A stretch of DNA of 64,000 nucleotides, taken from positions 16,618,501 through 16,682,500 of the forward strand of contig NC_081822.1 of the NCBI RefSeq assembly GCF_030704535.1, in the 5' to 3' direction. The notes under the pieces are model-generated. The model saw only the letters and a list, made by a program, of their open reading frames with translations, searched no databases and was not told the origin of the DNA. The stretch's first letter is position 1. Each line of letters opens with the position of its first letter. Both the position numbers and the translations under genes were made by a program. Below, piece by piece: positions 5,852 to 64,000 of this stretch. Origin of the DNA: Vitis vinifera (Eukaryota; Streptophyta; Magnoliopsida; Vitales; Vitaceae).

Positions 5852-6290
5852 ATCGTCACTGTTGCCATCACCGTCACAGTCGCCGTTACCAACATCGTTA
5901 CCGTCACCATTATCACCACTATTACTGTCACCGTCACCGTCACTATTACTCTTATCGTTACCTTTACCGTTGCCGTTATCGTAACCATTACTGTCATCAC
6001 TACCGTCAATGTTATCATCATCGTTATCGCAACAGTTACTGTCACCATTACCGTCATCGTCGTTATGGTTATCCTTATCGTTATAGTGATTGTTACTGTT
6101 ACCGTCATAATAATCGTTCTTGTCATCGTCACCGTTACTGTTACCATCACCATCACCGTCACCGTTACCGTTACCATTACCATCATCGTGACCATTATTG
6201 TCACCGTCACCATTACCTTTACTGTCCCTATTACCGTTATCGTAATCGTTACCGTCACTGTCACCGTTACCATCACCATCACCTTTATTG
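5852..6290. repeat. Hexamer satellite block 1 (ACCGTT/ACCGTC type)
   Basis: About 73 tandem hexamers of the form A-Y-N-R-T-Y, for example ACCGTC, ACCATT, ACTGTT and ATCGTT. The block starts inside a minisatellite unit: its GGACGTCATC runs straight into GTCACTGTTGCC. It ends against the gypsy LTR at 6291. It is the shortest block and the only one touching the minisatellite. Confidence 0.93.
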
Positions 6291-8412
6291 ACCTAGTACT
6301 AATGAATTAAATAGGCAATAATGATTATTTTAGTACTTAACTTTAAGCTTGCTTAATTAGATATTAAAACTAGTTTAGTGCTAATCATGTTTAATTATGA
6401 ATTAAACTTTGATTAAGGTTAAGTGGGATTAGTTAATGACTTAAACATGCTTATTAGGTTCTTAGGGACTGATTAGGGTTATGAAAACCTAAAGGACTAA
6501 TGGGCAATTATGGGTTTTATTTTTGATAACTTGAAGGACTAAAGTGCAAAATTGGGAAATTGAAGTTAGTGGAATGCCACCTCCTACTTGGGTGGATTGG
6601 TAGTAGCCATGTGGCTTGCCACCTCGTGCTTGGCTTCATGGAGACCCCTTTATAAGGGGGCTGTAACTCGTTTTCCACCATTTCACTTGCAGCAACTTGG
6701 GTTAGAGAGAGAATCTAGAGAGAGAAAGTGTAGATTTGAGGTAAGCAAGTTGTTTAATTTTGTAATTTTCGTTTATTTTGGTTCCTAATGGTATGTTGAA
6801 AAGAATTAACAGTAAAATTTGTGTAAAAGTTGAGTGTAATTAGTTATAAACCTGGTTTAGTTAAAAATCACAATTAATTTAAGATTAAAGTATTTTATTA
6901 ATGGTAAGATCAGCACGAATCTTTGTTTAATTTGGTTTGATTGAAAAAAATAGATTAGTAAACATGTGATTAATTAGGTTATTTGGACACTTAGGATTTG
7001 TTAATAGGTTAGGCTTTAAGAAAATCAAAAGAATTAGTGTTTGGTAATTAATTGGGGAATATGAGAATTGAAAAAAATTAACAATAGAAAGTTGTTAAAA
7101 ATTAGTAAGAAAGGAAAATTTCAAAAGTTTTAATTGAATAACTAATAATGGTTAGGAAACCTAAATAATGTTGTTTCATTTCAGTTCCTCGTAATAGGCA
7201 AAGATCGCCTACATAGAAGAAACACAAAAAGGAAACTGGTGTAAGGTAGGGAATTTTATGCTATTCTATGGTGTATCTGATTTCTTCCCTTGAATCATTT
7301 GTTGGAATTTCACGTTATTTCTATGATTTCATAAAATGTTTTAATGTGTCATTGCATCTCTGTTTATTGCATTGAAATGTTACCATGATATTGGAACGTA
7401 TATTGGTATGAAGATTCATGGTTGTGTTGTCGAAATGGTTCATGGTGTGGTTGCATTGCAAGAAGGATATGGAATTTATCACAGATGATATTCAGAGAAT
7501 TGATTGGTGGGAAGTGTTTATGTGATGCTACAGACATTATCATTTGATATATTGTTTATGTGGGACCGTGGGTCCTTTGGTGAAAGTCCCTAAATCCCTC
7601 GAGGAAGACACTCCAATGTGGGTGTATGGGGTTGGTCCTGCCCTTGGGTATGAGTTCCAAAAGACACGGGGTATGACTTGCCCTTAGGTGATGTCCCAGA
7701 ATAGTCATTATTATATTGATCGTGTATCTTGTGAAGCATTAATATCTAATGTGTAGATTGTTGGGGGTCAGCAGTTTATCAGTTGTGAAAGGATGGATGG
7801 GGAAAAGTAAGGATGAAACTAACAAACACATGCATACATGTTTGACATGATTACACATTTGTTAATGGTTTAAATGTTTATCATCCATGCTTTTAAACGT
7901 TTAATTCAAGGTTTTTAAGGTTATGCTTTGGATTGTTATAAACTTTCCTACTGAGTTGTGAACTCACCCTATCCCTTCCACCTTTAGATGTAGGTTAGAA
8001 GACCTATGCAGGAAATAATGCTTGAGCAATGCTTTACTGTGATTGGATGCTGTTTGCTCAATTGAAAGTCTTTTGAGGCTTTGCCTTTGTATTAAAGACT
8101 GAATCTTTTTGTAGGAATAATGTAATACATATAATTGTCAGGTACACTTGTAGTAAGGGCTACCCGTAGTGAACAATGGGGTTTGGTATATGTAAATTAA
8201 CGTAGTATAAGTTTCTTTTAAGAAACGAACCATATTTGTTAACTACAAGTTAGAAAGTTTAATACAGGATGTACTCCTTATAATATGTTTTGCATATCCT
8301 CTTTTTGCACAAAATCAAGTAGGAACTCAACATTTAAATTTTTTAGAGCACTTATACTATATTTGAGTATCAATTCTTTAGTTTGAAGAATAACAAAAAC
8401 CGGGGTGTGACA
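6291..8412 (+). repeat. 5' LTR of the gypsy element
   Basis: The LTR aligns along its length with the solo LTR at 18040-20238. It ends GGGGTGTGACA three bases before the primer-binding site, which fixes the right boundary. On the left, family members start TGTAACACCTAG or TGTAATACCTAG; here recognisable LTR sequence starts at ACCTAG, directly after the hexamers. It contains a TATA box and a purine-rich AGAGAGAGAATCTAGAG leader shared with the other LTR copies. Confidence 0.88.
6649..6656 (+). promoter_or_regulatory. Probable TATA box of the LTR promoter
   Basis: TTTATAAG lies in the first third of the LTR, about 55 bases before the conserved AGAGAGAGAATCTAGAG leader. The same box in the same context is present at 18404 and 20404 in the other LTR copies. 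This is the expected layout of an LTR U3/R boundary, but the start site is inferred. Confidence 0.55.
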
Positions 8413-8415
8413 ACT

Positions 8416-8427
8416 TGGTATCAGAGC
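8416..8427 (+). promoter_or_regulatory. Primer-binding site for initiator Met tRNA
   Basis: TGGTATCAGAGC starts three bases after the LTR end. This 12-mer complements the 3' end of plant initiator methionine tRNA and is the standard primer-binding site of many plant LTR retrotransposons. It fixes both the LTR end and the element's orientation. Confidence 0.92.
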
Positions 8428-8828
8428 ATAAGGGATTAGATCCCTATTGTGGACAATAGGTGGGGAGCCCAATAGGTGCACTGGAGTCATTATTATTGTG
8501 ACATTGTTTTATTGTGTATGATATATTGATATGAAGTGAAAGGTTAAAGGATGAATGTTAGGTTTGTGTTTTTGTTGTGTTGATGATATTCCTTGTTTTA
8601 TTGGTTTGAATATGCCTAGCTATGATAATTGTGAGCATGTTGCCTGTTTGAGTTCCTGATCATTGAGAATCCATTACTATGATATTGTTGTTATCAGGTT
8701 TGTTTTGAAAATGTTTGTATGTGACATAAGTGGTTTGATTGTATTGTTTAAGGATGCTTGATTTCATGAATAACCCTTATAAAGTGATGTATTGATAATC
8801 TAATCCTTGTATACCTTTCTAAGACAAA

Positions 8829-11800
8829 ATGCCTAGAGCAAGGAACAAATTAACCACAAGGCCTAGACAAACAACTAGATCATCTCTAATATCTCATGGT
8901 AATGTAACTGAGGGAAGAGTTGCAATATATCCAACTGCTGGTTTAGAATTCCAAAATGTGAGCTTAATTCGGGAATTTAAAGCACTAACTCCTCCAATCT
9001 TTCGTGGTGGGCCTAATTTTCTTGAAGTTGAGAATTGGATGAAAGAAATAAAGAAAATATTGGATGTAATGGTAGTGCCTGAGGAAAGGAGAGTTTCTTT
9101 AGCTTCCTTCATGTTGAGGGATGAAGCAGACAACTGGTGGGATATGATCAAGACTACTCAGGATGTAACTAAGATGGTTTGGATGCAATTTGAGGAGCTG
9201 CTTTTATCTAATTACTTTCCAGAGGCCGTTAGAAGACAAAAAAGAGCTGAATTTATACACTTGGTTCAAAGGAACATGACAGTGACTGAATATGCAACAA
9301 AGTTTACACAACTATCTAGATATGCTCCGAATGTGGTTGCAGATGAACAAATGTGAGCTGAACAATTCCAAGAGGGGTTGAGATTGAACATTGGAACATA
9401 GGTCGCTCCCTTCATGCTTCGTACTTATAGTGAGGTTGTGGCAAGGGCTCTTGTTATAGAAAGGGAAATGGAGGAAGCTCAAAGGTTGAGAAGCAGAAAT
9501 TCTAGGTTTGGTGGTTTAGAAAAACGAGAACGAGACTTCAGACGCCAGAAAGTGATTCATCCCCAACAACAACCCAGAAAATAAGAGCAGTATAGTGGGA
9601 CTACAGATTTGGCCAAGGGACCAAGGAGATGTTATGAATGTGGTGAGGTGGGACATCTTAGGAAGGAGTGCCCAAAATTTCAACGACTTGCATACTAGCC
9701 ATCTCAATGGCAGTTTCAGCAGATGAACCCACGAATCCAAGGAAGGCAACCTCAAGGGGAAGGAAACTTTAGACAAGAGAAGCCTGAAGGGAAGCCAGAG
9801 CAAGAACAACAAGGGAGATTTTATACAATAGGGTCACAAAATGAAGAGTCAAATGCCTTGGTGGAAGGTATAATCTTATGTTTTAGCACTTGGGCACATG
9901 TTTTATTTGATCCAAGAGCTACCCACTCTTTTATTTCTGCATCATTTGCCTCCATGCTAGACATATAATTTGTTCCCCTTCTTTGTTCATTATGTGTTGA
10001 GACTCCTATGGGTGGTAAGGTGGAAACCAAGTGGGTGTGTCATGCTTGTGTACTTTATATTGGGAGACTTAAAGTTACAATGGATTTGGTTCTTCTTGAT
10101 ATTTCATCCTTTGATGTAATTGTGGGGATGGATTGGCTTGCCCAACATCATGCTGTGTTAGATTGTTATTTGAAGAAAGTAACATTCCAAACCTTATCTG
10201 GTTCATATTTGAGTTTCTATGGTGATAGAAGGCTTACATTTATTCCACTAATTCGAAACCTAGATGACAAGTGGTCAAGAAAGGATGATAGACACTATTT
10301 TCTTTTTAATATGAAGGGAGAAGGCAAAAAGATGACAACTATAGATTGTCTTCCAATGGTTTGTGAATTTGCTGATGTTTTTCCTAAAGAATTGCCATGT
10401 TTACCTCCTCACAGAGAGATGGATTTTTCTATTGAATTGTATCTAGGTACAGATCCAATATCAATAGCTCCATATAGGATGGCTCCAGTTGAACGTAAGG
10501 AATTGAACATTCAGTTGCAAGAGTTGCAAACTAAAAGGTTTATTCGGCCTAGTACCTCACCTTGGGGTGCTCCAATATTGTTTGTAAAGAAGAAGGATGG
10601 ATCCTTGTGATTATGTGTGGATTACAGAAAATTGAACAGAGTAACAGTGAAAAACAAATATTCGCTACCTCAGATTGATGACTTATTTGACCAATTATGT
10701 GGGGCTTGCTATTTTTCAAAGATTGATTTAAGATCTGGTTATCATCAGTTGAGGATACAAGAATAAGATATTCCAAAGACTGCATTTCATAAAAGGTATG
10801 GGCCTTATGAATTTGTGGTCATGCCGTTTGGGTTAACCAATGCTCCAGCTGCATTCATGGACATGATGAATCGTATTTATCGGCCTTATTTGGATCATTT
10901 TGTGGTGGTATTTGTGGATGATATTTTTATATATTCTAAGAGTAGAGAAGAGCACGGTCATCATTTGCATATGGCACTTCAAACACCAGTTATATGCCAG
11001 TTATATGCCAAATTGGAAAATGTGACTTTTGGTTGTAGGAAATTCAATTTTTGGGGCACATGGTTTCTCAAGAGGGTATCTCAGTGGATCCAACAAAAGT
11101 GGAAGCTGTGACAAAGTGGGAAAGACCCAAGAATGTTTTTGAAGTACGTAGTTTTCTTGGACTAGCTAGGTACTACAGAAGGTTTGTTGAAAACTTTTCT
11201 TGAATTGCTTACCCAATGACTAGACTGACACGCAAGGGAGTGAACTTTGATTGGAATGATAGGTGTGAAGAATCCTTTCAATAGCTAAAAAGGAGACTAA
11301 CAATAGCGCCAGTGCTAATTACTCCTATTAGTTGCGAAAGATATATAGTTAATTGTGATGCTTCAAGAAATGGCTTGGGATGTGTTTTGATGCAAAGAGG
11401 AAGAGTGGTTGCTTATGCTTCTAGGCAATTGAAGAACCATGAGCAAAACTATCTTACACATGATCTCGAACTCGCAGCCATAGTCTTTGCTTTAAAGTTA
11501 TGGAGACATTACTTATATGGTGAAAATTTTGAAGTGTTTTCAGATCACAAAAGTTTGAAGTACATTTTCTCTCAAAAAGATCTGAATGCAAGGCAAAGGA
11601 GATGGATGGAAACCCTTGAAGATTTTAACTTTACTTTGCAGTATCATCCAGGAAAAGCTAATGTGGTCGTTGATGCCCTAAGTAGAAAGGCTCAATGTGT
11701 GTTATCTGGGTTGGTGGTTTATGAGTGGAAAATGTATGATTACATTAGTGAGTTCAATCCTTGCTTTGATGCACATGATTCTGGTGCATGTTTTTGTACT

Positions 11801-12124
11801 TTGGTAGCTCAACCATCAATATTGCAAAAGGTTATTAAAGCTCAAAGGAAAGATACAAAGTTAGAGGGCATGCACTCTCGAATCATGGCAGGTAATGCAG
11901 TAGAAGGTTGGAGCATACATTCTAATGGTGGGATTCATTTCTTGAATAAACTTTGTGTTCTTAATGATGCTTAGGTGAAGGATGAGGTAATGAAGGAAGC
12001 TTATCATTCTCAATTCACAGTACACCCTGGAGAAACTAAAATGTACCATGATTTGAGGCGTAAATATTGGTGGCAAGGTATGAAGCGGGATATAGCTCAA
12101 TTCGTTTCCAAGTGTTTAACATGT
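8829..12124 (+). pseudogene. gag-pol remains of the gypsy element
   Basis: Gag starts at the first ATG after a leader of about 400 bases (protein begins MPRARNKL). Its capsid part covers roughly 8.95-9.4 kb. A CCHC zinc knuckle, CYECGEVGHLRKEC, lies near 9.65 kb. The protease region, with FDPRATHSFIS in place of the usual D-S/T-G context, is near 9.9 kb. Reverse transcriptase spans roughly 10.45-11.15 kb, with the VDD-type catalytic motif in FVDDIFIYS and the SPWGAPILFVKKKDGS segment. RNase H follows to about 11.7 kb ([25 protein letters not shown]). The integrase H-H-C-C finger begins near 11.99 kb and is where the element stops. No chromodomain is present in the surviving part. The coding part is broken in several places and is not expected to make a working polyprotein. 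Confidence 0.9.
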
Positions 12125-14684
12125 CACCGTTACGGTTATAGTAACCGTTACTGTCATCGTCATCGTTACCGTCACCGTCATAGTTACCGTCACTATCACC
12201 ATCATCGTTATTGTCACCATCACCATCATTGTTACCCTTATCGTTATCGTAACTGTTATCGTCATCGTTATCGTTATCATTACCATTACTCTTTCTATTA
12301 TTGTTATCGTCACCGTTACCGTCATCTTGACTGTGACGGTTACTGCCACCATCACCGTCATCGTCACCGTCATTAATACTATTACCATAACTGTCATCGT
12401 CATTTTTACTGTTACCGTTATTGTCATCGTCACTGTTACCGTTATCGTCATTGTAATCATTACCATAACCTTCATTGTTACCGTCATCATCACCATTACT
12501 GTGACCTTGATCGTGGCCATTACCATTACTGCAACCATAACTCTTACTGTTATTGTTACTGTCATCGTCACCATTACTGTAACCGTCGCTATTACTATAA
12601 CCATTACTATGACCGTCACCGTTACCGTTACCATTACCGTTACTATAACCATTATCGTAACAATTATCGTCACTGTTACCGCCACCGTCACCATTACCGT
12701 CGCCGTTTAAGTTATCGTTATCAGTACCATTACCATCATCGTTACCGTTAAAGTTACCATCACTGTTACCATGACCGTTATTGTTACCGTTACTGTTACA
12801 GTTACCGACACCGTTATCGTTACTGATACACTCATCGTTACTATTACTATCCGCGTTACTTTTAACGTCACTATCACCGTCATTGCTCCCCGTTTCCATT
12901 ATCGTTACTCTCATCGTCACCATTACCATTACCGTTACCATTATCATCACCATTACTGTTACCATGACCGTTAACGTGACAAGTACAATTATTATCACCA
13001 TTACCATCACCGTGACCATCATCGTTATAGTCACTGTGATCATGTCGATCATTGTTATCGTAACCGTCCCCGTCATTGTCACGGTCACCATTACTATAAC
13101 CGTCACGGTCACAGTCATCATCATTGTCACCGAAATTGTCACAGTGACCATTAATATTACAGTCACCGCTACTGTCACCGCTACTATTACCGTTACCATT
13201 ACCGTTATCGTTGCCATAACCGTTACCCTTATCGTCACCTTTACTATCCCCGTTACTCTCATCGCTACCGTTATCGTTACTATCACCTTTACTATCACCG
13301 TTACCGATACCGTTATTGTCACCTTCACCGTTACTGTTACTGTTACCTTTACCATTATCGTAACCATTATTGTCATCGTTACTGTCACCATCACCGTTAC
13401 CATTACTATCACCGTTACCATTACCAATATCAGAAACGTTACTATTATTATAACCATTACTGTCATCTTTATAGTCACCGTCACAGTTACCGTTACTATT
13501 ACAGTTACTGTTACCGTCACCTTTACCGTCACTATTATAGATATTGTTACAGTCATCGTCACCGTTATCATTACCGTTACCATTACCGTTACCATTACTG
13601 TTATCGTAATCGTTATTGTCATTTTTACCGTCATCATTATTGTATCCACTAGCATCATCGTTATCGTCACAATTATCGTCACTGTTACCATCATCGTTAC
13701 TGTATGCATTACAATCACCGTCACCGTTACCGTTATAGTTACCATCACCTACACCATTACCGTCATCATTATTGTTACCGTTACCGTTGCTGTTACTGCT
13801 AGAGTTACATTTACGGTTACCGTCACCATTACCGTCGCCGTTATCGTTATCGTTACTTTTACCCTTATTGTCATCGTTACCATTACCGTCACTGTCATCG
13901 TTACCGAGATTGTCAACGTTACCATCACTATTACAATTAACATCACCGTTATCGTTACCGTTACCGTTATCGTTACCATCACCATTATTGTTACTGTTAC
14001 GGTTACCGTCATAGTTACTCCTACCGTTAGTGTTACCGTCATCGTTTTCATCACCGTCACCTTTACTGTTACTCTTACTGTTATTGTCATCGTCACTGTT
14101 ACCATCACCATTACCGTCACTATTATCGTAACCGTTACCGTTATCATAACCGCTACTGTCACTGTTACCATCCTCGTTACTGTCACCGTTACCGTTATTG
14201 TTACCGTTACCGTTACCGTCACCATTACTGTCACAGTTACTGTCATCGTTACCGATATTGTTACTATCACATTCACCGTTACTATTACAGTTACCATTAT
14301 CGTAACCGTTACTATCACTGTTACCATCACCATTACCATCACCATTACCATCACTGTTAGCGTCATTGTTACCGATACTATTACTATCATCGTCACCATT
14401 ATCGTTTCTAATATTGTTACCTTTATCGTAATCGTTACTATCATTGTTACAGTCACAGTTGCTGTCACCGTTACAGTGACCATCATCGTAATCATCACTG
14501 TCACTGTCACCGCCACCGTTATCGTCACCGTTACCATCATCATTTCCGTCATAGTCACTGTTACAGTCACCTTTACCGTCATTGTCATTGTCACCGTTAC
14601 TGTTACCGTCACCATTACTGTCACAGTTATTGTCATCGTTACCGATACTATTACTTTCACCTTCACCATTATTGTTACAGTTAC
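12125..14684. repeat. Hexamer satellite block 2, left part
   Basis: Continuous A-Y-N-R-T-Y hexamers in the plus orientation. The block starts in the gypsy integrase region, where ACATGTCA is compatible with both the element and the array. It ends at GTTAC, the left target duplication of the Copia solo LTR. All six frames show the usual low-complexity peptides, and no gene is seen. Confidence 0.93.
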
Positions 14685-15908
14685 TGATAAAACAAAGGCT
14701 ATGAATAATTAAGGAAAATACCCAAAAGGGGGGGTGAATTGGGTTTTTTAAAATCTTTTTCCACACAACAATATATGCACAAAATAAATAAAGGAAAGAG
14801 ATAAAGGTAAAGGATTCAAACTCAGATTTATAGTGGTTCGGCACTCCCTTGCCTACGTCCACTCTCCTCAATCTCCTAACCGAGTGAGGGTTCCACTAGC
14901 TTGAAGCTACAATCAAGCTTTCAATCGTCTTACACTTGGATTCCGGCTCCAATGGGCTCTTACACAATCTCTTCAAGATTTGAACCACTTGAAGGCTTTC
15001 ACACTCAGTTTACACAAGGATGAAACTCTCAACCTAGCTTAAGGAAGGCTCAAGTACAAGAGAAAGCTAGGATGAATTGCAAGAGTGCACTAAGAATATG
15101 CAATTGATGGTTTAATGCACTAAGAAAGAGGATGAGAGCTTTTTTGATCAAGAACAGGTAGGTAGGCTTTGAATGCAATTGTTCTCTTCTTCATAAATGA
15201 AGAGGAGCTCTCAATATATAGGTTTCTAAGCTCGGGAGACAAAAACAGCAGAAAGTAGCCTCGACCGGACGAGCAAAGGGTCGATCAGATCACTAGCCGT
15301 TGGAGCATTTAATGCATAGCAGGTTACCGTTGCCTCGACCGGACTTCGACCGGACATCGACCGGACCTCGACCGGACAAAGGGTGAGGCTCGACCGGGAA
15401 GAGGAAGCTACTGGGAGAGAGAGAAAGTTTTTGTGTTTCCCTCGACCGGACCTCGACCGGACAAGGGAAACCGGTCGACCGGTTCCCCAACCGGTTGAGC
15501 CGGTTCGCCATAGCCTCGACCGGATGAGCCTTTTGGCCCTGAAAACCTATCCTTTTTGATTTCTTTCTTTTCCAATACTTAGGCAAGGTCTTTAGGAGAG
15601 TTAATATGTCAATTTTGAGTCAATTTGCCTAAGGTATATTTGATAAAACTCGGGTTTTAAAGAAAATCAAGTTTTAAAGAATAAACCGAGTTTTCTAAGA
15701 TGCATGAAAATGTATGAACATCCTAAGTGCACTCATGCTATCATCTTACATTCATTTCCTATGATCACAAGTCCTCCAAATGGTCTTTACCACGTATTCG
15801 TTTGGTCCTTGAGATTATACCTGAGATTCTTAACAATTTAAAGCAATTAGTCACTTAACCACGGTTTGTTATCATCAAAACCTGATTAGGAGAACCCTTG
15901 GGCTAACA
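14685..15908 (-). mobile_element. Copia (SIRE-type) solo LTR, minus strand
   Basis: The 1224-bp segment reads on the minus strand from TGTTAGCCCAAGGG to TTTTATCA, a TG...CA pair. It is flanked by GTTAC on both sides (14680-14684 and 15909-15913), a 5-bp target duplication. Removing the LTR and one GTTAC restores the hexamer register. The GTTTTGATGATAACAAAC text near the LTR start, and the run of Gs followed by TGAATTGGG near its end, are features I associate with SIRE/Maximus Copia LTRs. No internal region is present, so it is a solo LTR left by LTR-LTR recombination. GTTAC is also a common word of the array, so the duplication alone is moderate evidence. Confidence 0.85.
15258..15525. repeat. 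Cluster of TCGACCGG motifs inside the Copia LTR
   Basis: About ten copies of TCGACCGG(A/C) occur within 270 bp, four of them at 10-11 base spacing from about 15333. AACCGGTCGACCGGTT near 15469 is a self-complementary version. The cluster is rich in CpG, in contrast to the A+T-rich rest of the LTR. Its role is unknown; it could be an LTR enhancer or a simple local amplification. Confidence 0.75.
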
Positions 15909-17825
15909 GTTACCATTATCGTAACCATTACTATCAATGTTACCATCACCATCACCGTCACCGTTACCAATATTATTACTATCACCATCACCGTTATCGT
16001 TATCGTAACCGTTACTATCACTGTTACCGTCACAGTTGCCGTCATTGTTACTGTGATCGTCACTATAATCGACACCATCATCGTCACCCCACCGTTATCG
16101 TCACCGTTACCATCACTATTTTCGTCATCGTCATCGTTACTGTCATCGTCATTATTATCGTCACCGTTACCATTACTGTTACTGTTCGCGATAGTGTTAC
16201 TATCACCATTACCATTACCGTGACCGTCATCGTAACTGTTACTGTCACTATGACTGTTATTGTTACTGTTACAGCTACTGTCATCACCACTACCATCACT
16301 GTTACCGTTATAGTAACCATTACCGTCAGCGTCACCGTCACCATCACCGTTATCGTCACCATTACCATCATTGTTACTGTTACCGTTATCGTTATTGTCA
16401 CCGTTACCATCATTGTTACTATTATCGTTATTGTTATCTTCACCGTTACCATTACCGTTACTGTTATCATTGCCATTACTGTTACCGTTATCGTTACCAT
16501 TACCGTTACCCTTTCTGTTATTGTTATAGTTACAATCTCCGTTACCATCATCGTTACCGCCACCATCACCGTCATTGTTACTGTTACCGCCACCATCACC
16601 GTCATTGTTACTGTTACCGCCATCATCACCGTCATTGTTACCGTTATCATTACTACCATCGTCATCTTTACTATAACCTTTACCGTAACCATCATCGTTA
16701 TTGTCACCGTCACCGTTACTGTTGCCGTTTCCGTCACTGTTACTGTCACCATTATCTTTAACATTACCGTTACTATTATTGTCCCCATTACTGTTACTGT
16801 TACCAATACCATTACTGGTACAGCGTCATCGTCACTGTCACCATTACCGTCGCCGTTTCTGCCACTATTACCATCACCATTATCTTTAACATTACCATTA
16901 TTGTTACCATGACCGTTACTGCTACCGTCACCATTACCTTAACTCTTACTGTTACTGTTACCTTCACTGTCACCATCACCGTCACCATTACTGTAACCGT
17001 TAATGTGACTGTCACCATTACTGTTACCGTCACTGTCATCATCATCGTTACCTTAACCGTTACCGTAATTGTTACTGTCACTGTTACCGCCTACGTCACC
17101 ATTACCGTCGCTGTTTAATTCACCATTATCAGCACCGTTTCTGTCACTATTATTGTCATCGTTATAGTTACCGTCACTGTTATTGTGACCATTACTTTTA
17201 CCGTTATCATCACCGTTACCGTTACTTTTACCATCATCATCACCATTACCGTTAACGTTATCGTTATTGATACACTCACCGTTACCATTACTGTCACTGT
17301 CACCGTCCTCATCCTCGTTACCATTACCATTACTGTCACCGTCATCGTTACCATTTCCGTTACCGTTATCGTCACCATTACCGTCACTATGGTCATCATC
17401 GTTACTGTCACTGTGACCATATTCGTCATCATTACCGTTACCGTAACCGTCATGGTCACGATCACCGTTAGTGTAACCGTCACAGTCACGATCACCATCA
17501 TTGTCACCGTGACCATCAATTTTATAGTCACTGCTACCATCATTGTTACTGTTACCATTACCGTTACCGTTACCATTGTTGTAATCGTTGCCGTTATTAT
17601 CACCGATACTATCACCGTTACCGTCCCCGTTACTCTCACTGTTATCATCATCGTTACTATCACCATTACCGATGCTGTTACTGTCACCTTCATTGTTACC
17701 GTTACCGTTATCGTTACCTTTACCATTATCGTAACCGTTACTGTCATCGTTACCGTTACTATCATCGTTATCGTTACCGTCACCATTACCGTCACCGTTA
17801 CCATCACCGTTACCGTTACTGTCAT
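15909..17825. repeat. Hexamer satellite block 2, right part
   Basis: This is the continuation of block 2 in the same register after the Copia solo LTR. It contains a local 30-bp repeat (five hexamers, three copies) at 16561-16650. It ends with GTCAT directly before the TG terminus of the next gypsy LTR. Confidence 0.93.
16561..16650. repeat. 30-bp tandem triplication inside the hexamer array
   Basis: Three consecutive copies of five hexamers (CACCATCACCGTCATTGTTA plus CTGTTACCGC). The first two are identical and the third is slightly changed. It is an example of short higher-order units made by recent unequal exchange or slippage within the older degenerate array. Confidence 0.85.
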
Positions 17826-18039
17826 TGTAATATCTAGCACCAACGAATTAAATAGGCAATAATGATTATCTTAGTACTTAACTTTAAACGTGCTTAATTA
17901 GATGTTAAAACTAGTTTAGTGTTAATCCTTTTTAATTATGAATTAAACTTTGATTAAGGTAATGTGGGATTAGTTAATGACTTAAGCATGTTTATTAAGT
18001 TCTTAGGGGTTGATTATAGTTATGAAAACCTAAAAGACT

Positions 18040-20403: not shown

Positions 20404-20411
20404 CTATATAA
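20404..20411 (+). promoter_or_regulatory. Probable TATA box of the outer partial LTR
   Basis: CTATATAA stands at the position of the TATA boxes in the sister LTRs and precedes the AGAGAGAGGATCTAGAG leader. Activity is unknown. Confidence 0.5.
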
Positions 20412-38126: not shown

Positions 38127-38201
<75 letters not shown>

Positions 38202-51600: not shown

Positions 51601-52166
51601 GGTAATAGTAATGGTAACGGTTACGGTGACGATAACGGTAATGGTGACTATGACAATAATGGTAATGGTGACAGTAACGGTTATGGTAACGATTACGGTG
51701 ACGATAACGATAATGGTGACTGTGGCAATAATGGTAACGGTAACGGTGACAGTGAGGTGATCGTGACGATAATGGTTACGGTGATGGTAACGGTAACAAT
51801 TATAGTAATGGTGACGATAATTATAACTTTCACGATAACGGTCACTTTAATGGTTATGGTTATGGTAACGATAATCATAATGGTCATGGTGAATATAATG
51901 GTAATTGTAACGGTGACGGTGATAGTAACGATTATGGTAACAGTTACGGTGATAGTGATAGTAACGGTCACGGTAACGATAAGAATATCCAAGACGGTAC
52001 CAATAATGGTAACAGTGACGATACCTATATCGAAGACGGTAGTAGTAATGGTAACGGTAACGGTGACAGTAATGGTAACGGTAACGGTGATAGTAATAGT
52101 GACGGTAATGGAGATAGTAACGGTAACGGTGATAGTAACGGTAACAGTGATGGTAACAGTGATAGT
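42677..52166. repeat. Hexamer satellite block 4, inverted 9.5-kb part
   Basis: From 42677 the plus strand reads GGTAAC, GGTGAC, AGTAAC and similar, the reverse complement of the rest of the window's array. It returns to ACCGTT-type units at 52167. About 1,580 hexamers lie between the two switches. The signature word TGACACTAAAGATA (49401, 49599, 50609) is the reverse complement of TATCTTTAGTGTCA at 31000, so the inverted part derives from the same array family. No transposon lies at either switch point. Two open frames of more than 1,100 codons run on opposite strands of 46.0-49.4 kb and are repeat artefacts. Confidence 0.94.
48213..48234. other. Short non-hexamer island in the inverted array
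   Basis: GTGGGGGAAATGTTCCCTAT interrupts the hexamers and contains the small inverted repeat GGGAA-ATG-TTCCC. It is one of the few stretches in the 9.5-kb part that cannot be read as variant hexamers. Origin unknown. Confidence 0.7.
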
Positions 52167-55100
52167 AGTCACCGTTACTATCATCGTTACCGTTACCGTT
52201 ACCGTCACAGTCACAGTCAACATCATAGTCACCAATACCATTACCGTCACTGTTACTGTTACTATCACCGTTACCGTCACTATTACCATCAACATCACCA
52301 TTACCGTTATCGTTACCCTTACCATCACCGTTACCGTTACCGTCACCATTATCAATACCATCACCATTATCATTATCGTTATCGTTACCGTTACCATTAC
52401 CATTACCGTCCGTGATACCGTTATCTTCATGGTTTTCGTGATCATTACCATCATCGCCATCGTAACTGTTACCATAACCATTATCGTCATCGTCAGTGTT
52501 ACCATTACCGTCATCGTTATAGTCACCGTTATCGTTACCATCTCTTTTACCATCATCGTTACCGTTACCGTTATTGTTTCTATTATTGTAATTGTCACCG
52601 TTACCGTTACTCTAACTGTTATCATGATCGTTACCATCACCATTACCATCATTGTTACCTTGACCGTGACCGTTACAGTAACCGTCATACTTTACCGTCA
52701 CTGTCAAAGTTACCATCGCCGTTTCAATCACTGGGATCATCACCGTTACCGTGACTATTACCATTACCATTACTGTTACTATTACAGTCACCGCTATCTG
52801 AATCATTACTATTATCGTAATCGTTACCGTTATTGTCACCGTAACCAATACCATCACTGTCAGCATTACTGTTACCGTTACCGTTATTCTCATCATTACT
52901 ATGATTGTTACCGATACAGTGACCGTTATTATCACTGTTATCGTTACAGGCATCGTGACCGTCACTATTATTGATACCGTTATTGTTACTGTGACCATCA
53001 CTGTAATGGCCATTATTGTCACTGTCACCCTTACCGTCACCGTTATCGTCACCGTGACCGTTACTGTTACCATTACTATTACCGTTACCATTATCATCAG
53101 CGTTACCATTACCGTCACCGTTATGATTATTGTCACCGTTACCATTATCGTAATCATATGTTATTATCACCATTACCGTTATTGTGACTATCCTTGTTAC
53201 TGTTACCATCCTTGTTACCGTTACCATCACCGTTACCATGACCGTTATCGTTACCGTTACCGTCACCAGCATAGTCACCATCATAGTCACCATTACCGTT
53301 ACCATCATCGTTACTGTTACTATCATCGTTACCGTCACTATTACTGTTATCGTCACCATTACCGTTATCGTCACCGTTACTGTTACTGTCACTGTTACCG
53401 TTACAGTTACCATCATCGTTACAGTTACCATCATCGTTACCGTTACCGTCACCGTTACTGTTACAGTCACCGTTATCATTAACTACACCGTTATCGTTAT
53501 CCTTACCGTTACCATTACTATTATCGTCTTCGATACTTTTATCATCACCGTTACCGTTGTAATCATCGTCACTGTCACCATCACCGTTACCGTTATTGTT
53601 TCTATTATTGTTATCATCATCGTTACCATTACTCTAACCGTTATCATTATCGTGATCGTTACCGTAATTGTTACCATCACCGTTACCATCACCAGTACCA
53701 TAACAGTCATCGTTACCGTCACCAGTCCCATAACAGTTACCGTTATCACCACTGTTACTATTACCATTATTGTTATCGTCATCGTAACTATCACCATCAC
53801 CGTTTACTATTATCGTCACCGTAACCTTTACTGTAATCATTACCGTAACCGATATTGTAACCATTATCGTCACCATCACTCATATCGTCACTGTTACCAT
53901 TACCATCTCCGTTTTCATCACCTTTACCGTGTACGTTACTGTCATCGTAACAATTATCGTTACCGTTAATATTACCTTCTTCGTTATCGTGACCGTTACC
54001 ATTACAGTGACCGTCACCATTACCACTACCATTGCTGCTTCTACCACCGTCACCATAGCCTTTACCGTCACTGTTACCAACACCGCTATAGTCACTGTCA
54101 CCATTACCGTTACTGTCACCGTCATCGTAACTGTCACCGTTACAATTACCATTACCCTCACCGTCATTGTTACCATTACCGTCACTATTACTGTCACGGT
54201 TACCGTTATTGTCACCGTCATTGTTACTATTATTGTTACGATAACCGTCATCGTTATTGTTACCGTCACCGTCACCATTATTGCTACTGTTACGGTCATT
54301 ATAAATGTTACCATTACCGTTATTGTCACCATTACCGTTATCGTCACCATTACTATTACCGTCACCATGACCATCATCATGGTTGTCATTGTTATCATCA
54401 TCGTTATCGTCACCATTAACATCACTGTGACTGTCACCATCACCGTTAGCATCATCGTTACCGTCATAGTTACCATCACTATTAGTGTCACTGTTACCAT
54501 GACCGTGACCGTGACCATGACCGTTACCGTCGTCGCTACCGTAACCGTTACTATTACTGTTACTTTTACCATTACCTTTATCGTTACTGTTATCATAACC
54601 GTTACAGTCATCCTTACCGTTATCGTCATCATTACTGTTATCGTTACCAACAACGTTACCGTCACCGTTACCGTTATCATTATTGTTATCATAGCCATTA
54701 GTGTCACTATTACTGTCACCGTTACCATTACCGTGACCTTCAATGTAATCGTCACCGTTACCATCATCATGACCATTATCGTCACACTTTTCGTTACAGT
54801 TACCATCATCATTACAGTTACCATTACCATTATTGTTATCGTTACTGTCATCGTTATGGTCACTGTTGCTGTTATCGTCACCGTTACTGTTACCGTCACT
54901 ACTGCCATTACCGTCACCGGTATTGTTATCGTCACCATTATTGTCACTGTTACCATTACCATTACGGTTACTGTCATTGCTACTATTATTGTTACCATTA
55001 CCGTCACCATTATCGTTACCGTCCACGATATCATTACCGTTACCATCACCGTCACCCTTACCGTTGCTGTTATAGTCATCGTCACCGTTACCCTTACTGT

Positions 55101-58100
55101 TACCGTTACCGTTATCGTCACTGTTACCATCACCTTTATCGTTGTAGTCACAATTACCACCACCGTCACCGCCACCGTTATTATTACTGTCATAATCACT
55201 AGTATCGTTACCTTCACTGTAACCGTTACCGTCACCTTTATCGTCACCATTTCTGTCATTGTTACCATCTCCATTGCAGTTGCAATTACTGTTACTGTTC
55301 TCGTCACCTTTATCGTGACCGTTACCGTTAGTGTTACTGTTACCGTAACTTTTACCGTTACCTTTATCGTTATCGATATTGTTATCGTTACCGTTACCAC
55401 TACCGTCATCGTAACCGTTACCATTACTATTATTTTGACTGTTATCGTGATTGTGACCATTACCATCACCATTACCGTAACCATCACCATTATTGTCACT
55501 GTTACCATTACAATAATCGTAGTCGTCACCAATATCGTCACCATTACCGTTACTATTATTGCCACTATTACAATAATAGTAATCATCACCGTTATCATCA
55601 CCATTACCGTTATCGTCACTGTTATTGCTACCGTTACTGTTACCGTCACAGTCACCATAACCCTTACCTTTACTGTTACGGTCACCATCACCGTTATTGT
55701 TACCGTTAATGTTACAGTCACCCTAACCATTACCGTAACTGTTACCATTACCGTCACCGTTATCATCACTTTCAACATTATCGTCACCGTTACCGCTATT
55801 GTTACCATTACTTTTAACATCACCATTATCGTTACCGTTACTATTTCTGTTGCTGTTGTTAATGTTACCATTATCGTTACCGTCACTGTCATTGTCACCA
55901 TCATAGTCACTGATACCATTACCGTCATCGTTAATGTTACCATTATCGTTACCGTCACTGTCATTGTCACCATCATAGTCATTGATACTGTTATCGCCAT
56001 CATTACCGTTACTATCACCGTTATCGTCAGTATTACCGGCAATGTCACCATTACTGTCATCGTTACCGTTACCGTTATCGTCACCGTTATCGTTATCGTT
56101 ACCGTTACCGTCACAGTTATCGTTATCGTTACCGTTACCGTTACCGTCACCATTATCGTTACCGTGACCATTACCGTTACCGTTCGGGATACCATTATCT
56201 TGACCGTTATCGTTACCATTACCATTACCGTTACCATCACCATCGTTGTCACCGTTATCGTCACTTATAACGTTATCGTTACCGTTACTCTCATCATTAC
56301 TATGACTGTTATCGTTATAGTGATACCGTCACCATTATCGTGATCGCCACTATTATTGTTACCATTACCGTTACAGTCATCGTCACCGTTATCGTTACAG
56401 TCATCGTCACCACCATTGTCACCGTCACCGTTACCATCACCGTAATCACCATTACTGTCACTATTATCGTTACCGTCACGGTCACCATCGCCGTTACCGT
56501 CACCGTCGCCGCTACCGTCACCGTCCCCATCGCCGATACCGTCATCGTCACCATCACCATCACCGTCACTGTTATTATCACCGCGATCCTTACCCTTACC
56601 GTTACAATTACCGTCACCATCATCGTTACTGTCGCAATAACTATCAATGTTACCATTATCGTTATCATCATTGTTACCGTTGTCGTCACTGTTACAATTA
56701 CCGTCATCGTTACCATCACCGTTACTGTTACCGGTACTATCACCGTTACCGTTACTGTCACTGTTACCGTTATAATCACCGTTATTGTTACCGTTACCAT
56801 CACTGTGACTGTCACTGTTACCGTTACCATTATCGTCACCCTTACCATTACTGTTAAAGTTACCGTCACCGTTACCATCACCGTTATCGTCACCGTTATC
56901 GTTATCGTTACCGTAACTGTTAATGTTATCTTTACCGTTACCAATACTATTATCGTCACCGTCACTATCACCATCATAGGCACCAATACCATTACTGCCA
57001 CCGTTATCGTTACTATCACCGTTACCGTCACTATTACTGTCAACGTCATTATTACCCTTACCATCACCGTTATCGTTACCATCACCGTTATCGTTACCTT
57101 CACCGTTATCAATACCCTCACTATTATCGTTATCGTTACCGTAACCATTACCGTTGCCATCCGCGATACCGTTATCGTGACCGTTACCGTCACCGTAACC
57201 ATTATCGTCACCGTTATAGTCACCATTACCATTACTGTCTCTGTAACCATCACCTTTACCATTACCGTTATTATTTTTATATTGTTATCGTCACCGTTAC
57301 CGTTACTCTAACTGTTACCGTAATCGTTACTATCACCGTTACCGTTATCGCCACCGTTACCTTGACCATCCCCGTTATCATAACTGTCAACGTTACCGTC
57401 ACCGTCACTGTCAACGTTACCGTCACCGTCACTGTCACCGTCATCGTCACAATTATCACCACCCTCGCCACCACTATCACCGTTACCATCACCGTTTCAG
57501 TCACCGTGACCGTGACTGTTACCGTTATCATCACCATTACCGTTACTGTTACCATTACCATTGTTGTCGCCGTTATAATTACCGTCATCGTTTCCATCAC
57601 CGTTACCGTTATGGTCACTGTTACCATCACCGTCACCGTCACCGTCACCATCACCGTTACCGTTACCGTCACTGTTACCGTCACCATTACCGTTACCATC
57701 ACCATCACCATTCTCGTTATCGTCACCATCACAATCACCGTTACCATTACTATCACCATTACCTTAACTATTACTATCAACGTCACTGTTACTGTTACCG
57801 TCACCGTGATCATTACCAACACCATTATCGTTATCGTTACCAATTTCGATACTGTTATCCTCATCGTTACCGTGACCATTACCGTCACCGTCACCGTAAC
57901 TATTACCATAACTGTTATTATCACAATCACCATTACAATTACCATTATTGTCACCATCATAGTTACCGTATTCATAACAATTAAAGTGACCATTATCGTG
58001 ATAGTTACCATTATCGTCACAGTTACTATAACCGTTACCGTTACCGTCACCGTAACCGTCACCATCACCGTCACTTGACTGTCACCGTTACTGGTACCAT

Positions 58101-60954
58101 TACTGTCAGAGTCACCATTACCGTTACCGTAACCGTTATCGTCTCCGTTACTATTTCCATTACCGTTACTATTATCATCATCGTTATCGTCCCCATTACC
58201 GTTATCGTTAATATTACCGTCACTTTTACCATTACCTTTATCGTTACCATTATTTTTACCGCCATCGTTACAGTTATCATTACTGTAACCATTATTGTTA
58301 CCATTACCATCACCATTACCGTCACCATTACCATCACCGTTACTATGACCGTTATCGTGATCGTGACCATTACCATCACCATTATCGTAACCGTCACTAT
58401 TACCATTACTGTGACCGTGATCGTTACCATGACCTTTTCCGTTACCGTTATCGTTACCGTTACCATTACCGTTAATGTTACCGTCACCGTTACCGTGATC
58501 GTTACCGTTATTGTGACCATCACCGTTACCATCACCATTGTCGTTATTGTTTCTGTTATTGTTACCGTCACTGTCACCATTACCGTTACTCTTACGATTA
58601 CCGTTACCATCACCATTACCATTACCATCATCATTACCGTCATCGTTAGCTTGACCGTGACCGTGATCGTAACCGTCATAGTTACCGTCACCGTCACCGT
58701 TACCATCACTATTTCAGTCACCATCACCATGACCATTACCATTATTGTTACTATTACCATCATCGTTACCATAATTGTTACTATTACCATCATCATTACC
58801 GTTACTATCACCGTGACCATCATTATTTCAATCACCGTGACCTTCATCGTTACCGTGACTATTACCATTACCATTACTGTTACTATTACCGTCACCGTTA
58901 CCGTAATCATTACTATTATCGTCATTGTTACCGTTACTATCATCATAACCAATACCATCACCGTTATCATCACCATCACTATGACCATGATCGTTATTGT
59001 CACATTACCGTCACCGTCACAGTCCCTATTACCTTTATCGTCACCATCACCGTTACCGTCACTGATACCGTTTTCGTTATCGCTACTCTCATCATTACTA
59101 TGACTGTTACCAATACAGTGACCATTACCCTCACCATTACCCTTATCGTCACTGTTACCGTAACAGCCATCATCATCGTCACTATCACCGTCACTGTTAT
59201 TGATACCGTTACCATTATCGTGACCATCACCGTAATCGCCATTACTGTCACCATTACCATTGTCATTACCGTCACCATCCCCGTTATCTTCACCGTCACC
59301 GTTACCGTTACCATTACCTTCACTGTTACCGTTGCAGTAATTGTCACTATTACCATTACCGTTATCATCACCTTACCATTACCGTTAGAGTTACCGTCAC
59401 CGTTACAGTTATCATCACCGTTACTGTCACCGTTACCGTCACCGTCACTGTTACCGTCACCGTCACCGTTACCGTTACCATTACCATTACCGTTACCGTT
59501 ACCTTCACCGTTATCATTACCCACATCGTTATCGTTATCGTTACCATTACCATTACTGTTACCGTCTTCGATACTATTATCATCACCGTTACCGTTACCA
59601 TCACCGTTACTGTTACCGTAATCGTGAATGTTATCGTCACCGTTACGGTTACCGTGATTGTCCTCGTTACCGTTACCATCACCGTTACCGTCATTGTTAC
59701 CATCACCGTTACTGTCACCATCACAACCACCATTATGGTTACTGTCACCGTCACCGTCATCGTTATCGTTACTATCACTGTTACCGTCACTATTACTATC
59801 AACGTCACAGTTACCATTACTGTCACCGTTACCGTTACCATCACCATTACCGTTACCGTCACCATTATCATTACCAACACCATTATCGTTATCGTTACCG
59901 TTACCATTACTGTTATCGTATTCGATATTATTATCATCACCATTACCATGACCGTTACTATCACCGTCATCGTTAAGATTATCGTTACCGTAACCATAAC
60001 CGTTAAAGTGACCGTTACCATGACAGTTACCATTATCTTCACCGTTACCGTTACCGTTACCGTTACCATCACCATAATCATTACCGTCACCATCACCTCA
60101 TTATCACCGTTACCGTTATCGTTACAATCATAGTCACTATTACCATTACCATCTCCATAACCATTACAATAACTGTAACCGTAACTGTACCATCACCGTC
60201 ACCTTTACCATTACCGTTATTATTACCATCACCGTTACTATCACCGTTACCGTCACTATTACTGTCAACTTCACCGTTATCGTTACTATCACCATTACCG
60301 TTACCATTACCGTCACCATTATCATTACAACACCATTAACGTTATAATTACTGTTACCATTACTGTTACTGTATTCGATACTGTTATCATCACCGTTACC
60401 GTCACCATAACTATTACCATAACCATTACTATCACCATCAATTACCATTATTGTCACAATCACCGTTACGATTATCGATACTGTAACCATAACTGTTAAA
60501 GTGACCATTACCGTGACAGTTACCATTATCTTCACCATTACTATAACCGTTACCATTATCGTCATTGTAACCGTTATGGTCACCGTCACCTCATTGTCAT
60601 TGTTATAATCACAGTCACTATTACCGTTACCATCACCGTAACCGTTACCATCACCGTTACCGTCACCGTCACCTTTACCATCACCGTTACTGTCATCGTT
60701 ACCGTTACAGTTATTGTTACAGTTACTATTACAGTTACCTTTACCGTTACCTTTACAGTTACCATAATTTTTACCATCATCGTTACAGTTACAGTTATCG
60801 TAGTCATTACCATTACCGTTACCGTAACTATTACTGTTACCATTACCGTCACAGTTACTATGACCGTTATCGTGACCATGACTGTTACCATCACCATTAC
60901 CGTAACCATCACTATTACCATTACCGTCAGCATTGCCGTAACCATCACTAGTAC
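52167..60954. repeat. Hexamer satellite block 4, plus-oriented right part
   Basis: About 1,465 hexamers in plus orientation with no transposon. Signature words of block 3 recur here (CTCTCATCATTACTATGA near 52890, 56289 and 59090; GTCTTCGATACTATTATC near 53526 and 59566; TTCGCGATACC-like words near 56190 and 57160). Blocks 3 and 4 therefore share higher-order units. It ends at AGTAC, the left flank of the solo LTR. No gene is seen. Confidence 0.95.
55861..55992. repeat. 72-bp duplication (12 hexamers) in the array
   Basis: AATGTTACCATTATCGTTAC starts at 55861 and again at 55933, with nearly the same following sequence up to the TGATAC words. It is a recent whole-unit duplication inside the older degenerate array. 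Confidence 0.88.
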
Positions 60955-62686
60955 TGACTACTACTCAAAAAGTGTTATTTTATAACTTGTAATTAACTCT
61001 TTTAAACACTTTTAAGTAGTAGTTATTACCTTTTAACTCAATTGGCATGTTAAGGACCCTTGCAATCATTTCTAATCAAATTGTGTTAAGTTTTGGTGTT
61101 TTTGATAACTTTTTTATCACCAAAGCAATCCAAGAATGAGGGAGATCTTTGTATAGTTCATGGAAAAGCAAGTTGAAGCTCAAATTCATGAAGAAATTAA
61201 GCTTTGGAGCTTCATAACCCTTTGCCAAAGCCAAACGAGGATGCAAAGAAGAAAACCACAGAAGAAATCAACCATCCAATAATTTTGCAAGTTGTGGAAT
61301 CCAACTTGCGAAATTTTCATAATTTGCGAAATAGGAAGAGGAAAGGAATCACTGCAGAATGGAGAGCTGATTAGTTGCAGGACAATTTCGCAACTTGCGA
61401 AACCACAATTTCAACTTGCGAAATTTTTTCAAGTTGCGTTTGAACTTACAAAATCCACCTATAATCTGAGATATTTGTGCACCAACTCCGTTTAATATTT
61501 ATCTTCACATATTTGTGTGTAAGTCCCTATTTACTTCTTGTAACCCACCAATGACAAGTTTTCTTGGTTGGGAAGTTAGCAGGAGGGGTGAATAGCCTCT
61601 CTATATAATATCTATGTAATTTTCTTTTAAAAAATATCTCTCGGGGGGAGTTTTTCTCAGAGACAAACTTTTGTATAGTTTTTCATAAAGTAATACACAG
61701 AGCTCTGCTCTGCCTTATCTTCTCATTTTGTTTTCTCTTTTATTTTTATTTCTAGTAAATCAAACTCTGAGGATGTTTTCCTAGAGGATGAGTGGCTAGG
61801 ATTTTTGTTTCTCGGAGTGAAGGAAGCTAGGTAAGGTTCCGGATACAAAAGTGGAAGTTTCGTTGTTTCAGTTTTTAATGAAGAAAAAGTGTGACCCGTT
61901 AATGGTTTTTAACTTTTTAGTTAACTTAAAATCCCTTAAAATCACCTGGGCCAACACTTGGTAAGGCAAGTGGACTCTGTCCATTGAGATCCTCTAGTTT
62001 ATCTCTTGCAAGCCTCTGGGAGGTGGTTTAAAGGTAGGATTTTCTAGAGTAGCCAACACTTGGTAAGCTTTTGGACTCCCAAGACACATCTATTAGTTAT
62101 CTCTTACGAGCTTTTGATGGGTAATCCAAGGTTAAGGATCACCTTGAATGGCCAATACCAGGTGAGAGGTATGAACCAGTGGAAGATGATTCAGTGACAA
62201 GGATTTAGTGTTTGAAACCATTAAAGGGAAGCATCTGTACCACACCGATTCGGGAAATAAATATATGTTAAATCCCTAATGCGAGGAAAAGATCCAAGTG
62301 ATCGGAATCTCCCTTTTTGTATAAGGAACCTGAGCCTAGTGATCTAAAACTCCAAGAAACACTTTTCTTTGTAAGTAATTTCAGTTACTTTATTTTTTGT
62401 TTCACTTAAAACCAACCTTTTCACACATACTTATGTTTTCTTTTAAAGCTAACCTTGAAAAGAAAAAACACCAATTCAGTTTTTGAACTACTATCAGTTG
62501 TAATTTGAAAACCCATCCCTATGGACGATCCTAGAGCCACTATGCTATGCTAGCTAATGCTACCCTAGTATATGGTGAAATAGGTTTATAAATTTTGTTG
62601 ATTACTCCCGTCTGAGAACTGAAATCAAAGCACACCTGTTGATTGAACACCAATCAACAGGGCATACACCAACTGGGCACGAATCA
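60955..62686 (+). mobile_element. Solo LTR, MARTRG-element family, plus strand
   Basis: The LTR is 1732 bp, from TGACTACTACTCAAAA to GGGCACGAATCA, with TG...CA ends. It matches the LTR at 34886-36192 in the opposite orientation but is longer. The flanks are AGTAC (60950-60954) and ATTAC (62687-62691), a likely 5-bp target duplication with one difference. The array usually reads ATTAC at this place, so the left copy probably changed. The hexamer register is preserved across the insertion. No internal region is present. An open frame of 67 codons at 61292 is in LTR sequence and is not considered a gene. Confidence 0.87.
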
Positions 62687-64000
62687 ATTACCATTATCGT
62701 CACCATTACCGTTACAGTTACCATCACTGTTACCGTCACCATTACCGTCATAGTAACCGTCACTGTTACTGTTACCATTATCATCACCGTTACCGTTACC
62801 GTTACCATTATCGTGAACGTTATCATCACCATTACAGTTACGGTGATCGTCCCCGTTACCATTATCGTCATCGTTACCATCACCATTACCGTTACCGTCA
62901 CTGTTACCGTCACCATCACAAACACCATTACCGTTACCATCACCGTCACTGTTACTATCATCATTACCATTACTATCACAGTTACCATCACTGTTACTGT
63001 TACTATCACCGTTACCGTTACCATCACTGTTACCGTCATCGTTACTGTGACTATTACCATTACCATTACTGTTACTATTACCGTCACCATTACAGTAATC
63101 ATTATTGTTACCGTCATCGTTATCGTTACTTTCATCATAACCAATATCGTCAACATTACTGTGAGCGTGATCATTACCGTCAAATTACCATCACCGTCAC
63201 TATCACTATTACCGTCACCATCACCATTACCGTTATCATCACTGATACCGTTACCATTACTCTCATTATTCTATGACTGTTACCGATACAGTGACCGTTA
63301 TCGTCACCATTACCGTGACCGTGATCGTTACTATCACTATTATTGTTACAGTTATAGTCATCGTAACTGTCACCGTCATCGTCACCATTATTGATATCGT
63401 TACCGTTATCGTTACCGTCACCATAACCGTTACCGTGACCGTTACAGCTACCATTACCATCACTGTTACTGTAATCATCACCATGACCGTTATTGTTATA
63501 GTTACCATTACCGTCACTGTTATCGTAATCATCACCGTTATCGTTACAGTTATTGTTTCCATTACCATTACTATCACCGTTACCATTACCGTCACCGTTA
63601 CCGTAGTTGTGTACGTTATCGTCACCATTACCGCTACCGTGACCGTCCCCATTACCGTTGCCGTAACAATTATTGTCACAGTTATCGTCACCATTACCGT
63701 TACCGTTACCGTGACCATTATCATCTCCTTTACCATCATTGTTACTATAAAAATTACCATGACCATGACCGTTACCGTCACCAATATCGTAACCATCACC
63801 GTTGCCATTACCGTTACCGTGACCATTATCATCACCTTTACCGTCATTGTTACTATAAAAATTACCATGACCATGACCGTTACCGTCACCAGTACCGTAA
63901 CCATCACCGTTACTGTCACTATTACTGTTACTATTACTGTTACCATCACTGTTAGTGTCACCGTAACAATTACCGTTACCATTAATATTATTGTCACCTT
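62687..64000. repeat. Hexamer satellite block 5, runs off the window
   Basis: Plus-oriented hexamers in the register of block 4. It includes the CTCTCATTATTCTATGAC signature near 63260. The array continues past the right edge, so its full length is unknown. Confidence 0.95.
63711..63905. repeat. 108-bp duplication (18 hexamers) in the array
   Basis: GTGACCATTATCATC starts at 63711 and again at 63819, followed in both copies by the rare word ACTATAAAAATTACCATGAC. The copies differ at a few bases. It is a further higher-order unit with a length that is a multiple of six. Confidence 0.88.

Follow-up and report, generated by a model that had tools for sequence, protein, structure and literature searches.

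A degenerate six-base tandem array in 64 kb of DNA, probably an old satellite block decayed by methylcytosine deamination

How can a six-base tandem repeat extend over tens of kilobases, diverge to a pairwise unit similarity of only about 64%, and still keep its register? The question is raised by a 64,000-bp stretch of DNA, called the window here (all positions are counted within it), of which 38,651 bp form a degenerate ACCGTT-type hexamer array. The answer that we regard as probable is that this array is an old 6-bp satellite block in methylated heterochromatin that has decayed mainly by deamination of methylcytosine. The degenerate look with a kept register would then arise because the C:G sites at positions 2 to 4 of the unit decay while positions 1 and 5 stay. 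The host is most likely a plant, and a grapevine origin is plausible in view of similar retroelement proteins.

Extent, unit and register of the array

The array was delimited with a circular six-state hidden Markov model (HMM) that allows both orientations and has a background state. It returned eight segments, of which seven, with 29,161 bp in all, run forward and one, of 9,490 bp, is reversed:

5848..6290, forward strand: hexamer array F1 (HMM); relic duplication in 0/71 units
12123..14686, forward strand: hexamer array F2 (HMM)
15906..17828, forward strand: hexamer array F3 (HMM)
21892..34887, forward strand: hexamer array F4, the longest, 12,996 bp with 34 register shifts (HMM)
41546..42677, forward strand: hexamer array F5 (HMM)
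42678..52167, reverse strand: hexamer array R, inverted, 9,490 bp (HMM, block alignments)
52168..60956, forward strand: hexamer array F6 (HMM)
62687..64000, forward strand: hexamer array F7, leaving the window at the right (HMM)

Together these hold 6,370 complete units, arranged head-to-tail over kilobases; the array passes the right edge of the window, and 38,651 bp is only the part that lies within it. The first-pass annotation had claimed a large degenerate hexamer array of about 38.6 kb, in eight segments of either orientation and with its register kept. The HMM bears this out to within a few bases, with phase well maintained (72 register shifts across 38.7 kb). The annotation had also proposed A-Y-N-R-T-Y as the unit, which can be refined to A-Y-Y-R-T-N as the better description of the HMM profile: A.95 at position 1, C.72/T.25 at position 2, C.67/T.26/A.06 at position 3, G.61/A.34 at position 4, T.95 at position 5 and T.56/C.31/A.07/G.06 at position 6. 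Unit profiles are alike in all eight segments.

In 250-bp windows lying fully in the array and free of register shifts, the match to AYYRTY or its complement is about 0.88-0.97, falling to as little as 0.54 where a window holds a register shift or an orientation change; the forward template matches at 0.40-0.56 in windows fully outside the array. Self-match at lag 6 is 0.51-0.74 fully inside the array versus 0.20-0.45 outside, and only 0.15-0.30 at lags 5 and 7 inside it. Among the units there are 340 distinct hexamers, with almost no periodic order.

Context-dependent decay at positions 2 to 4

Substitution at these positions was analysed in the 5,394 of 6,370 units that have C or T at positions 2 and 3 and G or A at position 4, leaving out the 976 units with another base at any of the three. 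Variation there is by C>T and G>A, and the states of the three positions are not mutually independent. Position 2 is T in 731/2383 (.307) and 349/1055 (.331) units when position 4 is G, which places C2 in CHG context, and in 254/1528 (.166) and 42/428 (.098) units when position 4 is A, which makes it CHH. The higher frequency with G4 is what one would expect if CHG methylation of C2 depends on an unchanged G4.

When one rate each is set for CG, CHG and CHH contexts, the log-likelihood (lnL) is -9687.1, versus -9767.9 for an independent model with one rate per position; both models have three parameters, and the fitted context rates are.41 for CG,.38 for CHG and.11 for CHH. Adding a fourth rate that separates the two CG strands raises the lnL to -9671.9. 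The gain of the context model is also seen in units outside relic duplications (lnL -4921.3 versus -4972.1, a gain of 50.8, n=2752) as well as inside them (27.5), and, when R, F4 and F6 were fitted singly, it reached 25.4 for R and 26.4 for F4.

Four LTR (long terminal repeat) copies in the window served as a control, with transitions at 7/58 CG, 15/139 CHG, 68/1661 CHH and 51/3907 A:T sites. They rank the contexts as the array does; relative to them, the array has gone about 2.5-3.3 times deeper in C:G contexts and only about 1.4 times deeper at A:T. In C>T rate, CG and CHG thus stand well above CHH and A:T, as expected of plant-type methylation decay. The variation at positions 2 to 4 therefore seems to reflect deamination of methylcytosine in CG, CHG and CHH contexts better than independent rates do, although not fully. 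A study of grapevine clones reports methylation of transposable elements at about 90% in CG and about 70% in CHG, and among its somatic variants C>T changes are enriched 6.3-fold where CG sites are highly methylated (PMC13352677); these figures would be relevant to the array only if its host is grapevine-like.

Position 6 and relic duplications

Position 6 is the only one with clear short-range order (lags 1-6). Deamination was considered as the source of its variation and rejected: C6 is in CHH context, whose rate of.11 cannot yield 56% T, and T6>C at 31% far exceeds T5>C at 1.9%.

Duplicated blocks are hidden at first sight, because the mean identity of units at lags 1-30 (0.626-0.642) lies close to the 0.636 expected of independent units. 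A scan based on rare variants nevertheless found 307 ungapped segments of at least 22 bits, where two unit-permuted controls gave 7 and 3, and 180 gapped alignments that exceed one permuted control and cover 3156/6370 units. When slow sites were given more weight, with weights derived from the held-out agreement of duplicate pairs, 199 alignments exceeded three permuted controls and covered 4355/6370 units (68%), the coverage being 42% in R and 82% in F4. The longest block alignment is gapped and spans 254 units, and some alignments join R to the forward segments F4 and F6 in opposite orientation. A 21-base marker taken from one block occurs in 15 places including its source with at most 3 mismatches, versus 0.01 expected from whole-window shuffles, a lenient null that destroys the array. 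The array has thus been amplified by copying of its own blocks, as short-unit satellites are, outside F1. An array frozen since a single burst, which the near-chance lag identity had suggested, is ruled out by these many dispersed duplicates. F7 also carries a duplication of 104 bp (63700-63911) whose copies are 96% alike.

Duplicate pairs allow the ages of the variants to be compared, with each position left out in turn when pairs are chosen. Agreement at the held-out position was 544/610 for position 6 (49 pairs, chance.417), and 1432/1975 (.725, chance.576) for position 2 in 136 pairs, 1672/2320 (.721, chance.514) for position 3 in 161 pairs and 2003/3222 (.622, chance.488) for position 4 in 223 pairs; for positions 1 and 5 (148 pairs) it was.970 and.951, with chance at.904 and.910. 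The pair sets differ by position, with one control each. Position 6 is the slower site, and from the agreement of duplicates we infer that its variants mostly predate the copying of blocks and that positions 2 to 4 acquired much of their variation later. The variation would then be of two kinds with separate histories, overlaid on hidden, dispersed duplications, and the first-pass annotation had missed both features.

Insertions into the array and neighbouring sequences

The array is interrupted by the following stretches (TSD, target-site duplication):

6289..12122, forward strand: truncated Ty3/gypsy element with gag, protease and RT-RNaseH fragments (Pfam, boundaries)
14685..15908, no strand assigned: 1,224-bp insertion, solo-LTR-like, TG...CA, perfect TSD GTTAC/GTTAC (ends, TSD)
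17829..21891, forward strand: two gypsy LTR/5'-region copies and a 214-bp tandem duplication (sequence comparison)
34886..41545, no strand assigned: 6,660-bp LTR-element-like insertion, TG...CA, perfect TSD GTTAC/GTTAC, internally rearranged
60955..62686, no strand assigned: 1,732-bp solo-LTR-like insertion, TG...CA, imperfect TSD AGTAC/ATTAC (4/5)

At least one LTR element was inserted into the array itself. When the flanks of the insertion at 34886-41545 are joined, they align to a homologue near 52623 that has no interruption; an ungapped block spans the junction, and the score is 398.5 versus a null maximum of 346 (113 array stretches). The array is therefore older than at least this insertion. 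For the others the joined flanks scored 796 versus 697 at 60955-62686 (95 stretches), where the block at the junction is short; 490 versus 356 at 14685-15908 (120 stretches), with no ungapped block across the junction; and, weakly, 740.5 versus 711 for the gypsy stretch at 17829 (114 stretches). LTR elements thus seem to have entered an already existing array, at least in the case of 34886-41545.

The gypsy stretches from 6289 and 17829 begin at an array edge, and their other end appears cut off by the array. No Pfam match was found in five open reading frames (ORFs) of the 34886-41545 insertion, to parts of which 60955-62686 is related in opposite orientation (main pieces 84-89%). The three LTR-type insertions share the hexamer phase. 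Their targets, at 14680-14684, 34881-34885 and 60950-60954, read GTTAC or nearly so and have the palindrome GTNAC at their centre, possibly a target preference. One gypsy LTR/5' region is present in four copies (1-1230 in reverse, 6289-8413, 18038-20239 and 20240-21891) that are 85.5-92.4% alike. Within the 34886-41545 insertion, positions 38129-38200 are a 72-bp poly-G (97% G) that could be an assembly flaw; close by, 37941-38143 and 39301-39099 form an inverted repeat at 99% identity. The 1.2-kb insertion holds a cluster of an 11-bp motif (TCGACCGGACA) at 15262-15530. To the left, positions 1231-5847 hold another degenerate tandem array, which adjoins the hexamer array at 5848; its unit measures about 59-60 bp (CATCCTAGGTTCTATCTATG...), and its units are 65-80% alike in the rows listed.

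Proposed history and alternative explanations

These observations can be brought together in the following scheme. A seed ACCGTN, already variable at position 6, would have expanded to tens of kilobases; as the array aged, blocks of about 0.1-1.5 kb would have been copied, scattered and partly inverted, and LTR retrotransposons would have inserted after this block copying. Throughout, cytosines at positions 2, 3 and opposite 4 would have turned into T by deamination of 5-methylcytosine in a context-dependent manner, high in CG and CHG and low in CHH, while the A:T positions 1 and 5 scarcely changed. Methylation, whether present or past, the heterochromatic setting, the neutrality of the changes and the order of the first steps are inferred parts of this scheme, and a sequence-specific function is most likely absent.

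Several observations fit this history poorly. The three-rate context model falls 43.6 lnL units short of the saturated model (lnL -9643.5), its gain is only 3.8 in F6 alone, and G4>A with C2 and C3 intact (.435) exceeds C3>T with C2 and G4 intact (.299), even though both are CG sites. In the LTR control the CG and CHG counts are small. The rate of A:T transitions, 1.8-1.9% in the array versus 1.3% in the LTR copies, rises less than the scaling seen at C:G, so that conservation of positions 1 and 5 may slightly exceed what LTR scaling predicts. Regarding the duplications, F1 has none in its 71 units; in the ungapped set, pairs between R and forward segments number 19 versus 48.9 expected by random placement, and pairs within R 3 versus 8.0. 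Double hold-out shrinks the advantage of position 6, although it is still present, with kappa for position 2 versus 6 at.47 versus.67 (12 pairs), for position 3 versus 6 at.42 versus.54 (21 pairs) and for position 4 versus 6 at.20 versus.62 (24 pairs). Finally, the scheme does not account for a seed that varied at position 6 and nowhere else. Two routes to an ACCGTN unit at birth can be imagined: descent from a coding repeat (Thr-Val or Asn/Asp-Gly) that was multiplied and later came into methylated heterochromatin, or an amplification that reproduced five positions exactly and left one free. The coding route was considered because the freedom of a single position may resemble that of codon-degenerate arrays (such as the loci L155 and L128, see below), and we consider either route a long shot.

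The conservation of positions 1 and 5, at 95% and changing somewhat less than the LTR-scaled expectation, together with the well-kept register, is also what one would see in a functional centromeric or pericentromeric satellite in which selection preserved A1 and T5 as contacts of a binding protein. We think this unlikely, since A:T positions should be the slowest to change anyway if deamination dominates, and since grapevine centromeres are tied, in the excerpts of the relevant papers, to units of 107, 135, 187, 66 and 56 bp (PMC10199708) and 79 bp (PMC13352677). A role tied to a particular factor is conceivable as well. On the reverse strand the unit is AACGGT, which contains AACGG, the core of the plant MSA/MYB motif, so that the array might act as a decoy for MYB-type factors. 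CCGTT/AACGG is retained in 901/6370 units, but the C and G sites of the motif are lost at methylation-like rates, nothing suggests that they are being kept, and we give this idea hardly any credence. It is also very improbable that the array is an assembly or sequencing artefact, that is, an expanded or chimeric repeat. The sequence comes from a single assembly and the poly-G at 38129-38200 in an inserted element is odd; an artefact would nevertheless have to account for 340 distinct hexamers with scarcely any periodic order, for context-dependent substitutions, and for in-phase TSDs that are perfect in two of the three LTR-type insertions and agree at 4 of 5 bases in the third.

Whether the array is, or recently was, a protein-coding dipeptide repeat (Thr-Val, or Asn/Asp-Gly on the other strand) deserves separate consideration, since it has long ORFs on both strands, of up to 1,140 amino acids, and since the repeat has exact 21-base matches at no fewer than 159 prokaryote and viral loci. 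Among the matches listed, 104 loci have arrays of at least 8 units (1,960 pooled units, at most 91 in one array) whose variation falls mainly at positions 1, 4 and 6, and the 14 longest resemble coding repeats when translated, reading as Asn-Gly-like or Thr-Val-like. L155, L128, L145, L149 and others, on viral-collection and prokaryote contigs, are short ACCGTN-type arrays that read as Thr-Val or [Asn/Asp/Tyr]-Gly, with position 1, 4 or 6 the main variable one. Those arrays keep positions 2 and 3 (C.92 and.93), whereas C stands at.72 and.67 in the hexamer array here. A coding repeat should vary most at silent positions and least at amino-acid-changing ones; instead, positions 2, 3 and 4 decay similarly, with little difference between position 2, which would change the amino acid, and the silent position 3. 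Moreover, both strands are open simultaneously, there are 72 register shifts, and two array ORFs searched against Pfam had no match. The long ORFs on both strands may be expected in any case, because most frames need rare changes to produce a stop. The substitution pattern thus disfavours coding, present or recent, to the point that we assign it next to no probability, and the array is apparently non-coding.

Significance

Under the proposed history of methylation-driven decay, the array would make it possible to time satellite growth and decay independently at a single locus, because fast sites (positions 2 to 4) and a slow site (position 6) share one unit, which homogeneous satellites do not allow. 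If the unit was indeed ACCGTN at birth, by either of the routes above, position 6 would serve as a slow barcode, paired within each unit with a fast deamination clock. Eroded hexamer blocks of this kind may also be overlooked in genome scans, because published settings break the array up and leave about half of it unreported. With the Tandem Repeats Finder settings of a grapevine study (PMC10199708), also printed in the excerpted text of a second grapevine paper (PMC10822838), the array splits into 448 rows, the longest at most 869 bp, that cover 20,313 of 38,651 bp; periods of 6-30 make up 379 of these rows and multiples of 6 make up 444, and rows with a period of at least 30 cover 10,380 bp.

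Comparison with known repeats

The first-pass annotation knew of no described satellite with this unit. In the open-licence literature, searched by motif words (a weak test, with hits partly listed), we likewise found no ACCGTT-type unit as a named satellite; the same hexamer, written on the other strand, is however known as a microsatellite. According to excerpts of the sources, (AACGGT)5 occurs as a perfect microsatellite at two loci in Meloidogyne incognita and (AACGGT)n is among the frequent hexanucleotides of C. elegans (PMC3091743), and (AACGGT)n is also a microsatellite in some rodents (PMC7953163). These are, as far as the excerpts go, short and perfect, whereas the array here is degenerate and runs to tens of kilobases. 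The excerpted parts of a satellite DNA review (PMC8122249) have no bearing on an ACCGTT-type unit.

The comparison with published Vitis satellites that the annotation had proposed sets the array apart. The grapevine satellites with units of 79, 107, 135 and 187 bp, as given in the excerpts of PMC13352677, are likewise tandem and possibly from the same host, but their unit lengths do not match the period of the array, whose unit is 6 bp with no dominant longer period. A scan for centromeric units of 30-500 bp in grapevine reports, in its excerpted text, 107, 135, 187, 66 and 56 bp among others, as well as a 66/132-bp repeat on chromosome 18 of PN_T2T, 66 being a multiple of 6 (PMC10199708). Identity with that chromosome-18 repeat was considered and rejected on period statistics alone, since period 66 accounts for only 5 rows and 728 bp under the settings of that paper.

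Interstitial telomeric repeats share with the array a short unit, degeneracy and an internal place; the plant telomeric unit is TTTAGGG and that of the array ACCGTN, and two adjacent TTTAGGG units were found on neither strand of the window.

The (GAA)n blocks of Triticeae are short-unit simple-sequence satellites of tens of kilobases, and in both the few-base unit and the length of the arrays they resemble the array described here. They are fairly homogeneous, whereas the present units are about 64% alike pairwise and have positions whose histories appear separable.

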